Positions 13,590-42,686 of a stretch of 64,000 bases of DNA are shown here, in pieces (positions within the stretch are counted from its first letter, which is position 1; every line of letters starts with the position of its first letter). The DNA comes from Planotetraspora kaengkrachanensis (lineage in GTDB: Bacteria; Actinomycetota; Actinomycetes; Streptosporangiales; Streptosporangiaceae), in contig NZ_BONV01000004.1 of assembly GCF_016862895.1 (NCBI RefSeq), positions 124,001 to 188,000 of the forward strand, given 5' to 3'. Under the pieces are notes generated by a model. That model was not told where the DNA came from, did no database searches, and saw only the letters and a program-made list of their open reading frames with translations. A program made the position numbers and the translations under genes.

Positions 13590-13759
13590 AGGGGTTTTCC
13601 CTGGATGCGGCCTTTAAGGGCCGGGGGGTGACACCTTGATTCGCATGATCACGCGAGGCGTTCTGGCAGGTGGCGGTGGATGCGGCCGAATTCACGCATG
13701 ATCACGATTGGCGTTTTCCCTGGTGGGCGGCCGAGATCACGAAGGGGTGCATGATCACG
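13590..13759. repeat. 53-bp-period repeat array A (core GCATGATCACG)
   Basis: The 11-mer GCATGATCACG occurs at 13643, 13696 and 13749, exactly 53 bases apart each time. The DNA between cores is diverged but alignable: GGCAGGTGGCGG in the first unit matches GGCAGGTCGGCGG of array B, and TTTTCCCTGG recurs at about 13604 and 13714, suggesting a decayed unit before the first core. A partial core (GATCACG) lies near 13735. It fills the divergent intergenic region between the MFS and adaptor genes. Confidence 0.85.
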
Positions 13760-40853: not shown

Positions 40854-41816
40854 ATGCCGTCCGAGGTCAATACGGGACTCGCCACCCTGAGCGATCAGCT
40901 CATTCTGGCGACCGTCCTCCTCTATCTCGTCGCCATGATCGGCTACGCCCTGGAGCTCGCCTTCGGCCGGGTGCGCACGGTCTCCGCCGCGAAACGCGAA
41001 CCGGTCGCGGTGGGCGCGTCCGTGTCCTCCGGCTCGGGCGGGGTTCTGCCGGAGGCCGAGAGCCCGCGTGAGCCGGAGCCCGAGCCCTGGGCGATAAAGG
41101 CGGGTGGCCTCGCCGTCGTCCTCACGTGGATCGCATGGGCGGCCAACCTCGCCGGCATCCTCACCCGGGGCATCGCGGTGGACCGCTGGCCCTGGGCCAA
41201 CATGTACGAGTTCGTGGTGGCCATCTGCTTCGCCGCGGTGACTGCCTTCCTGGTGCTCATGACCCGCCAGCCGATCCGGTTCCTCGGCGCCTTCGTCGCG
41301 CTGACGGCCGCGCTCGGGCTCGGGTTCGCGGTGCTCTTCCTGCACGTGCAGGCGGGGCCGGTGATGCCGGCGCTGCACTCCTACTGGATCGCCATCCATG
41401 TCACGGCGGCCATCGTCGCCAGCGGACTGTTCATCCTCGCCGGCGTCTGCGCCATCCTCTACCTGATCCGCAACGACGGCCGGGCGTCGGTCCTGCCGAG
41501 CCGCAAGGACCTCGAGCGCATCACGCACCGCGCGATCGTGATCTCCTTCCCCATCTGGACGTTCGCCGTCATCGCCGGCGCGATGTGGGCCGACCGGGCC
41601 TGGGGTCGTTACTGGGGCTGGGACCCCAAGGAGGTCTGGGCGTTCATCACCTGGGTGGCGTACGCCGCCTACCTGCACGCCCGCGCGACGGCCGGATGGC
41701 GGGGCAAGGCCGCGATCATCGTGTCGCTGGTGGCGTTCGCCTGCCTGCTGTTCAACCTGATCGGCGTGAACATCTTCTTCAGCGGCCTCCACTCCTACGC
41801 CGACGTCCCCAACTGA
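40854..41816 (+). CDS. ccsA: Cytochrome c biogenesis protein CcsA/CcsB (heme handling)
   Basis: The 320-residue membrane protein carries the heme-handling WWD-type motif WGRYWGWDPKEVWAFITW (about 255-270) with conserved His residues in flanking loops (VQAGPVMPALHSYWIAIHV, GLHSY). With ResB it moves heme across the membrane and attaches it to cytochrome c. It follows resB by 2 bases. It is the last gene of this operon, and array B begins 13 bases downstream. Confidence 0.95.
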   Translation: MPSEVNTGLATLSDQLILATVLLYLVAMIGYALELAFGRVRTVSAAKREPVAVGASVSSGSGGVLPEAESPREPEPEPWAIKAGGLAVVLTWIAWAANLAGILTRGIAVDRWPWANMYEFVVAICFAAVTAFLVLMTRQPIRFLGAFVALTAALGLGFAVLFLHVQAGPVMPALHSYWIAIHVTAAIVASGLFILAGVCAILYLIRNDGRASVLPSRKDLERITHRAIVISFPIWTFAVIAGAMWADRAWGRYWGWDPKEVWAFITWVAYAAYLHARATAGWRGKAAIIVSLVAFACLLFNLIGVNIFFSGLHSYADVPN

Positions 41817-41829
41817 CCCTCCCCTTGGG

Positions 41830-41970
41830 TGTGATCATGCAGAGGTTGATGTCGTGATCATGCACGGATTCGTGGATGTGGCCTCTGGCGTGCGCCGACG
41901 GCATTCGTGATCATGCAAGGGTTCGCAGATGGCCCCTCCGACGTGCGTCGATGGTATTCATGATCATGCA
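41830..41970 (-). repeat. 53-bp-period repeat array B, left arm (minus orientation)
   Basis: The core, read as CGTGATCATGC, occurs at 41830 (first base T), 41853, 41906 and 41959 (second base A). The last three are exactly 53 bases apart; the first is 23 bases before the second, a truncated unit. The 53-base units at 41853 and 41906 are similar over their full length, both ending in ATT before the next core. They are the reverse complement of the right arm. Confidence 0.9.
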
Positions 41971-42040
41971 TCAGTCGTCGTGAGCACGCCTGTCGCATGC
42001 ACGCTGCCATGTCGTACGGCCAGGGCGCGCGGTCGGTCGT

Positions 42041-42211
42041 GCATGATCACGAAAGATGTCTCCGCAGGTCGGCGGTGCACCGGGCGAAAGTGTGCATGAT
42101 CATGAACAGGAGATGGGCAGGTCGGCAAGGGTGCCGACGAACCTGAGCATGATCACGCCTACGGGGAGGGGCAGGTCGGCGGGGGTGTCGCCGAATCTGT
42201 GCATGATCACG
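42041..42211 (+). repeat. 53-bp-period repeat array B, right arm (plus orientation)
   Basis: The core GCATGATCACG occurs at 42041, 42094 (GCATGATCATG), 42147 and 42201, with spacings of 53, 53 and 54. Each unit also contains GCAGGTCGGC about 25 bases into it and ends in a variant of CGAATCTGT just before the next core. The last core lies 10 bases from the end of the PLDc_N gene. About 70 bases without a good core separate it from the left arm. Confidence 0.9.
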
Positions 42212-42220
42212 CGGAGGGGG

Positions 42221-42550
42221 TCAGTCTTCGTCGCGGAGGCGGCGTTCCAGGTGACGGAGGAACTCGGGGTCGTCGTCGGGGCCCTTCGGAGCCTCGGCCC
42301 GGGGCGGTGCCGGAGGCATGCCTGAGGACGGCGTTCCGTAGATGTGACGCGCACCAGGGACCGTGTCGCCGATCCTGGGCCGTCCGAGCAGCAGCCACAA
42401 CAGGCCGCCCAGCGCCGCGAGCAACACCACGATGATGACCCAGAGGATCTTCGGCAGTCTCCGGACCTCCTGCTCGGGGCTCGTGATCACGTCGAACAGG
42501 CAGTAGAGCCAGAAGGCCAGCAGCGCTAGACCGATAACCACGCTAGGCAT
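42221..42550 (-). CDS. PLDc_N (phospholipase D nuclease N-terminal) domain membrane protein
   Basis: The 109-residue protein has two close membrane helices, MPSVVIGLALLAFWLYCLFD and [20 protein letters not shown], separated by the conserved ITSPEQEVRRLPK turn that defines PLDc_N. The second half is a Pro-rich, then acidic and basic cytoplasmic tail ending EFLRHLERRLRDED. No nuclease domain is attached. ATG 42550 or GTG 42556 could be the start. Function unknown; it is probably a small membrane adaptor. Confidence 0.85.
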   Translation of the reverse strand: MPSVVIGLALLAFWLYCLFDVITSPEQEVRRLPKILWVIIVVLLAALGGLLWLLLGRPRIGDTVPGARHIYGTPSSGMPPAPPRAEAPKGPDDDPEFLRHLERRLRDED

Positions 42551-42686
42551 GCCCACACGTTAAGCCATATGGCCATGTGATCGTGTTTTCGCGGCGATAG
42601 CCGTACATCATTTCCGGGTGACGCGGCCAGAACGGCAACGTACGGTGGACCGGTAGAACGCGAGCGCGCGACACATGAGAGGTGCG

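Follow-up and report, generated by a model that had tools for sequence, protein, structure and literature searches.

The repeat locus at positions 41830-42211 of the window, by which we mean the whole 64,000-nucleotide stretch analysed here, belongs to a family of extragenic elements found throughout the genome, each consisting of one or two arms of oriented sites. We propose, at a probability of roughly one half, that these elements arose as mobile repeats and were exapted as protein-binding arrays in helical phase, which probably form barriers where genes end. The window's genome (G000; 8.77 Mb in 96 contigs) holds 567 adjacent core pairs at the ~53-bp period (pattern GATCATGCN{37,43}GTGATCATGC; 272 on the + and 295 on the - strand), against 0 pairs for the reversed-pattern control. 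Sampling beyond the window covered 780 kb of G000 (contigs C1 and C3), 382 kb of G001 and stretches of further genomes, and many of the family counts given below include orthologous loci of related species. In 400 kb of C1, which contains 13 array loci, and in 382 kb of a relative, the commonest same-strand distances between cores were 53, 106 and 159 bp. The preliminary description had named a chance density of its 11-base core, or a spacing that collapses as copies are added, as findings that would tell against it; neither was seen in these stretches.

Architecture of the window locus and its family

The window contains the following array parts and neighbouring genes:

40854..41816, + strand: left neighbour, ccsA-like gene (Pfam Cytochrom_C_asm, E 5.4e-46)
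41830..41840, + strand: outer extra core, one mismatch (TGTGATCATGC), 23 bp outside the + arm and 13 bases past the ccsA stop
41853..41863, + strand: + arm core 1, exact
41885..41894, + strand: B-box position of unit 1, CTGGCGTGCG, degenerate here (consensus C(C/T)GACCTGCG)
41906..41916, + strand: + arm core 2, exact
41938..41947, + strand: B-box of unit 2, CCGACGTGCG
41959..41969, + strand: + arm core 3, innermost, CATGATCATGC, one mismatch
41970..42040, no strand: inter-arm centre, start distance core to core 82
42041..42051, - strand: - arm innermost core, exact
42064..42073, - strand: - arm B-box, GCAGGTCGGC as read on the + strand
42094..42104, - strand: - arm core, one mismatch
42117..42126, - strand: - arm B-box, GCAGGTCGGC as read on the + strand
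42147..42157, - strand: - arm core, exact
42171..42180, - strand: - arm B-box, GCAGGTCGGC as read on the + strand
42201..42211, - strand: - arm outermost core, exact; PLDc_N gene 3' end 9 bp away
42221..42556, - strand: right neighbour, PLDc_N gene (Pfam E 4.5e-09), convergent with ccsA
13643..13759, - strand: second array, a single arm with exact cores at 13643, 13696 and 13749 (spacings 53, 53), between divergent MFS and HlyD-like neighbours

All seven cores of the preliminary description lie where it placed them, with spacings of 53 and 53 bp in the + arm and 53, 53 and 54 bp in the - arm. Its near-invariant core holds for five of the seven, which are exact, those at 41959 (CATGATCATGC) and 42094 being one base off, and Pfam matches bear out the convergent ccsA and PLDc_N neighbours. 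The eighth core, at 41830, lies outside its list, and the second array was not mentioned in it. With up to two mismatches allowed, the 11-mer matches the window 76 times against 23.0 expected, a count reached by 0 of 100 shuffles. An Rfam scan of the window at gathering score gave 0 matches, as did a distant blastn comparison (E up to 0.01) of 451 bp of the locus with plasmid and phage collections. Among viral contigs, the pair pattern matched one, a tandem repeat of low GC content (~0.42-0.43) that lacks the array architecture.

Loci of the family have either a single arm or two, a + arm and, after it, a - arm that faces it, with 2-6 cores per arm. Among 140 loci, 63 counted as having two arms and 77 as having one, some of the latter because the locus is cut at the end of a sampled stretch or its arms lie more than 450 bp apart. 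Orientation is nearly uniform: 81 of the 82 neighbouring arm pairs within 450 bp (a count that keeps orthologues and overlapping stretches) run + then -, one runs + then +, and none runs - then +. The phase is also strict: 293 of 312 spacings in the Planotetraspora group measure 53 bp, 13 measure 52 and 6 measure 54. The oriented core has the consensus (C)GTGATC(A/T)TGC and is adjoined by a lineage-specific box and then by a weaker B-box, (C/T)GACCTG. Building the consensus of the 53-bp unit, as had been suggested, from 75 G000 units gave CGTGATCATGCAC(A/G)GGTTCG, a variable stretch, C(C/T)GACCTGCG and preferences for A, C and C before the next core. The GACCTG box lies 32 bp (about three turns) after TGATCA, and the next TGATCA 21 bp (about two turns) further on. 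As 53 bp is about five helical turns, successive cores share one face of the helix. The outermost core of an arm is flanked by C-rich sequence, and the box that normally follows a core is missing after the innermost one. At G000 C1:28555-28614 and at similar outer ends, extra cores stand ~30 bp apart and repeat GTGATCATGC(A/C)CAGGTTCGACCCCCTTGGC; they have the appearance of truncated units, and their spacing is like the 30 bp seen in G373, a genome from outside the family.

The distance between facing arms is also structured. Among 75 short inter-arm totals (GTGATCWTGC..GCAWGATCAC) from three genomes, 69 fall at 23-24 (25 cases), 30-31 (17) or 34-36 bp (27), and among longer ones 45-46, 51 and 56-58 bp are commonest; interiors of equal length are unrelated in sequence. 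When periods from 4.6 to 12.9 were scanned against uniform-length nulls, the short lengths (n=75) gave a best period of 5.7, equalled by 0 of 2000 nulls, and the longer ones (n=47, G003 left out) one of 5.8, equalled by 5 of 2000. For the longer class, G000 and G001 alone gave no significant period (688 of 2000 nulls), and G004 alone gave a different one, 4.6 (35 of 2000 nulls). We read the inter-arm lengths as stepping by about half a helical turn, although this is not secure for the longer class, and steps of half a turn instead of a full turn are not simply explained.

Gene context, relatives and age

The arms lie predominantly downstream of genes. Outer arm ends within 400 bp of a gene, as called by a simple codon-usage finder and not from annotation, face its 3' end in 130 cases and its 5' end in 49 (identical copies removed, orthologues kept). 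Arms lie a median of 15.5 bp from the gene 3' end, and the TGA stop codon coincides with the TGA of the first core in 34 of the 130 cases. The gene context of 62 loci from four groups, with 20 unassigned loci dropped, was convergent in 29, tandem in 32 and divergent in 1, compared with background intergenic pairs of 61:229:60 in G000 C1 (chi-square 41, P ~1e-9). An array between divergent genes at C3:360556 was dropped from this count, its gap exceeding 400 bp. The elements are thus extragenic and gene-downstream and avoid divergent regions, as do REP/REPIN elements. Of 38 single arms between tandem genes, 24 have the sense and 14 the antisense orientation (antisense in 4 of 7 in G000), and one conserved array lies inside an apparent operon, at the junction of the xdh Fe-S subunit gene and a deaminase gene. 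Neighbouring genes, where looked at, are unrelated in function. The idea that separated arms enclose a cargo was dropped, as the genes between them look ordinary, judged by eye from their sequence.

A stricter unit pattern matched 24 stretches in named records, 22 of Planotetraspora (P. mira, P. thailandica, P. phitsanulokensis, P. silvatica and one further species) and 2 of Microbispora, the window's own records perhaps being left out; from these matches we take genus g1 to be Planotetraspora and g30 to be Microbispora. All five g1 genomes carry arrays (146 to 721 pairs). The pattern GTGATCWTGN{41,45}GTGATCWTG was found in 5 of 64 other genomes of the taxonomic family (G062 541, G079 208, G074 57, G211 47, G090 2), with 0 matches for the controls, and gave 0 pairs in Microbispora G069, G071, G082 and G083; G212 has 231 pairs and G070 has 29 triple matches. 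The B-box is common to all these lineages, and the box after the core differs between them, being ACAGGTTCG in g1, of TTCCC type in G062, TAGTTTGTCGCA in the Microbispora outer unit and RAATTCTCGCA or AGAAACTCGCA in g51. Two other patterns were also searched: one matched 65 of 341 family genomes, outside g1, g24 and g30 mostly by single coding-like 59-bp hits that we take to be ctaD-like, and a triple GTGATC pattern matched 22 of 256 genomes, in many of them through single hits or repeats of another kind. Across the class, 394 genomes were sampled for exact GTGATCATGCA pairs at a distance of 49-63 bp, and 5 have them, namely G000, G070 and, outside the family, G373 (33), G432 (25) and G491 (1). 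Nine loci outside the family were viewed, of which six have + cores followed by - cores and three a single orientation; several begin just past a gene, and their spacing is loose (30, 49-61 bp), which indicates that the phasing is not universal. Related arrays thus occur in Microbispora, in two further genera and, loosely spaced, in three other families.

Some neighbouring observations concern other repeats. In G090, a genome almost without 53-bp arrays, GATCATGC-like sites cluster at ~15-17 bp (C95:6555-6611), perhaps a different geometry of the same sites. Family f6 carries an apparently unrelated 55-bp tandem repeat (GTGATCGCAAGCGCGGCGAAGCCGG...) at G422 C1:1694412-1694910 and G533 C1:123429-123654, and G448 a 27-bp tandem repeat (GTGATCTCCGCGTTCCGCGGCGCGCTC) at C2:256786-257088 and 1130823-1131098.

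Comparison of orthologous loci shows where the sequence is constrained. In 35 orthologous unit pairs of G000 and G001, for which at least 0.55 identity in the variable part was required, the core has diverged by 2.9%, the next box by 15%, the B-box by 17% and the rest by 37%, the core figure being somewhat favoured because units were found by their cores; the mapped flanks are 9% apart. The corresponding values for 13 units of G000 and G002 are 1.4% (core), 13.7% (box), 16.7% (variable part), 13.8% (B-box) and 22.4% (tail). G002 has only 146 array pairs against the 567 of G000. Its flanks at the compared loci are 86-98% (mean 94%) identical to those of G000; of 13 G000 loci, 3 keep their span in G002 (117, 117 and 174 bp), 7 are shortened and 3 are coreless, meaning no core within two mismatches, although one of these still spans 452 bp. 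At one locus, ~500 bp in G000 correspond to ~17 bp between both stop codons in G002, and at one aligned locus the species differ by exactly one 53-bp unit. Some genomes have lost intact arrays.

The xdh Fe-S/deaminase junction illustrates both persistence and loss. It holds arrays in G000, G062, G079 and G211, two decayed cores (GTGATC, 46 bp apart) in Microbispora G069 and one in G082; no array or core was seen in G071, and in G006, G204, G206, G213 and G090 the two genes nearly abut. At least this site thus predates these genera. Other sites are genus-specific: at three convergent Microbispora array loci the orthologous G000 gene pair lacks an array, and of 11 flanking genes with a homologue in the sampled part of G000, 5 have an array next to them in that genome, and all 5 belong to the xdh locus. 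The three array-less G000 junctions are at C1 93868-93966, 228925-228996 and 341035-341225, and two of them show GC-rich inverted repeats by eye.

Possible mobile origin, RNA structure and proposed protein binding

The suggestion of a REP-like or transposable element in the preliminary description holds in part. In favour of mobility are dispersed copies in G062, the 3'-end location and the patchy presence. Between loci, 42 of 6061 unit pairs in G062 are at least 80% identical in the variable part, compared with 0 of 3335 in G000. In the longest 25 of 124 alignments, whole two-arm loci of G062 match one another over 256-329 bp at 66-87% identity, in either orientation. These alignments begin no more than 20 bp from the left outer core in 19 cases and stop no more than 20 bp from the right outer core in 16, with both true of 11. 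Such dispersed whole-locus copies suggest that the origin was probably mobile. Membership of the RAYT-driven REP family is not supported, as five of eight array genomes lack a Y1 match: PF01797 (RAYT-type Y1) at E 1e-6 gave 0 matches in G000, G002, G062, G074 and G079, with matches in G004, G211 and G212 and also in 6 of 7 genomes without array pairs. A miniature mobile origin is thus likely, although for most of these genomes the RAYT route does not apply, and the G000 copies are old.

A purely selfish miniature mobile element is the strongest rival, although we consider it unlikely. Several transposases bind multiple sites at each end, and the facing arms would then be the multi-site ends recognised by a mobilising enzyme, with no host function, their 3'-end placement reflecting where insertions are tolerated. 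This would accommodate the G062 copies in either orientation, the rule that arms run + then - and never - then +, and a patchy presence that includes the three Microbispora loci whose G000 counterparts are array-less. It sits less well with G000, where no two units from different loci reach 80% identity, yet cores and spacing are intact at orthologous fixed loci. Moreover, 61 two-arm loci gave no signal of target-site duplication (longest flank match 1.84 versus 1.80 when shuffled; 133 of 300 shuffles as high), although old duplications could have decayed; 77 of the 140 loci were scored one-armed, and no transposase was found.

Alternatively, the element could act as RNA, the facing arms forming a long transcript stem that serves as a bidirectional terminator or as an mRNA 3'-end protector, which we regard as improbable. 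A cruciform or RNA stem had been suggested for the window locus and is possible there: its RNA folds at -208.8 against a shuffle mean of -174 (z -6.5; 0 of 100 shuffles as low). However, any facing arms with a common motif fold in this way. Single G000 units also beat mononucleotide shuffles (mean z -2.16; -0.51 in Microbispora, -1.02 in G062), in 12 of 20 Microbispora loci with two arms the central cores stand 15 bp apart and form near-perfect palindromes with very short loops, and the 3'-end location, as well as the inverted repeats at two of the three array-less G000 junctions, would suit an RNA element. Against this, position-matched similarity between arms exceeds the cross-locus background clearly only in Planotetraspora outer units (0.643 versus 0.557), with no excess in Microbispora (0.597 versus 0.603) or G062 (0.488 versus 0.480). 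Mirror-image pairing of arms, which by eye reached 0.91 and 0.85 at a few loci, was therefore not retained, and a Microbispora permutation result of 0 of 2000 for arm pairing is explained by the position-specific consensus. RNAalifold found no within-unit pairing beyond core with core, and its column-shuffled controls matched or undercut the observed energy in 40, 40 and 6 of 40 runs; a within-unit hairpin seen by eye (CAGGUUCG/CGACCUG) was not supported in this comparison. An intrinsic-terminator scan of 41750-42290 gave 0 matches, with little power as 0.1 were expected in shuffles. Single arms and a strict 53-bp spacing are not needed for a stem. The weak arm complementarity and the restriction of RNAalifold pairing to the cores suggest that the main constraint is probably something other than an RNA stem.

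Two further explanations carry little weight. Operator clusters of a conventional transcription factor regulon would fit the near-palindromic conserved site and its genus-specific neighbouring box, but an operator reading is very improbable given the depletion between divergent genes (1 of 62), the arms at gene 3' ends, the very many loci and the functionally unrelated adjoining genes, where examined. Neutral tandem-repeat noise of VNTR or MIRU type, or a CRISPR array, is hardly credible: the exact one-unit difference between species and the 12 of 101 Planotetraspora arms that pass a simplified CRT-like rule speak for it, whereas cores stay conserved while units diverge, the "spacers" share the B-box, inverted arm pairs sit at gene ends, and Tandem Repeats Finder reports 2.2 copies only at the window locus.

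We favour the reading as exapted, phased protein-binding arrays. The strict phase within arms, the stepped inter-arm lengths, the oriented sites and the conserved core together point to a nucleoprotein array at the DNA level, and the earlier suggestion of sites suiting a protein along one DNA face agrees with the spacing, core conservation and inter-arm steps. We propose the following hypothetical scenario, in which (i) the elements would have begun as miniature mobile DNA and been kept for protein binding; (ii) a putative trans-acting DNA-binding protein would cover the arms cooperatively; (iii) covered arms would form barriers at gene ends that limit read-through and the spread of supercoils, chiefly between convergent genes; and (iv) loss of the putative protein would let the arrays of a genome vanish together. 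From its position, a barrier at gene ends is the most likely function. The array inside the apparent xdh/deaminase operon, the antisense orientation of 14 of 38 single arms between tandem genes and the window array between divergent genes argue against it. A fuller version, to which we hold more tentatively, is that RAYT-independent miniature mobile DNA was domesticated as an insulator system with facing phased arms and one dedicated protein, whose box specificity would have drifted in each lineage and whose loss would have led to joint decay. If this is true, the GTGATC(A/T)TGC core in four families of the class would mark an ancient, unnoticed DNA-binding factor, and the barrier reading, if it holds, would show phased nucleoprotein boundaries separating bacterial genes. 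Pairs of close relatives with and without arrays would allow the putative partner protein to be sought by comparative genomics and pull-down.

Comparison with known repeat systems

Dispersed extragenic repeats are common in bacteria, the best-described being RAYT-linked hairpins. The present family has an unusually ordered architecture, in which helically phased arms face each other at the 3' ends of genes, and the window's own genome lacks a Y1 match. MITEs have inverted ends and dispersed whole-element copies, and resemble the arrays in the terminal inverted repeats (the outer cores of two-arm loci) and the dispersed G062 copies; the arrays differ in having no target-site duplication signal, no parent transposon recognised among the genes between separated arms, arms of several phased sites and, in G000, mutually unrecognisable copies. 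The MIRU and VNTR loci of mycobacteria are intergenic tandem units of ~50 bp, likewise in an actinobacterium, but array units are not near-identical, conserve a phased core and form two facing arms. BIMEs bind gyrase or IHF and, like the arrays, are composite and extragenic with proposed protein-binding sites; they alternate the orientation of their REPs, whereas here the sites of an arm run in the same direction and the arms face each other. The available text on BIMEs describes them as mosaic arrays of REPs (PMC2817692).

REP/REPIN elements are described, in the portions of the sources available, as numerous short extragenic repeats in inverted pairs, patchy between relatives and placed downstream of genes, between convergent or unidirectional ones (PMC3116915, PMC3733652), with GTAG or CGTC as REP tags (PMC3733652). 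To judge from those portions, the arrays share the abundance of short extragenic repeats, the inverted pairs, the gene-downstream placement and the patchiness. By the same portions, they differ in that each arm is a 53-bp phased direct repeat instead of a 20-40-bp hairpin, the core is GTGATC(A/T)TGC with neither a GTAG nor a CGTC tag in the consensus, the units have diverged outside the boxes, and five of the eight array genomes gave no Y1 match. The accessible parts of the literature yielded no description of these arrays; the matches listed for the core string on either strand are, to judge by their titles, primer or vector strings.

The arrays also resemble CRISPR loci, as a regular repeat with variable intervals, some arms of which pass a CRISPR-finder-like rule. 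They differ in their short core, the B-box shared by the intervals, the inverted pairs and the many copies at gene 3' ends. The arms that passed the simplified rule, 12 of the 101 Planotetraspora arms with at least three cores, suggest that part of the CRISPR counts published for five Planotetraspora species (4, 15, 3, 18 and 64 in the available text of PMC11431748) represents such arrays, and CRISPR counts in these genomes may thus be inflated.
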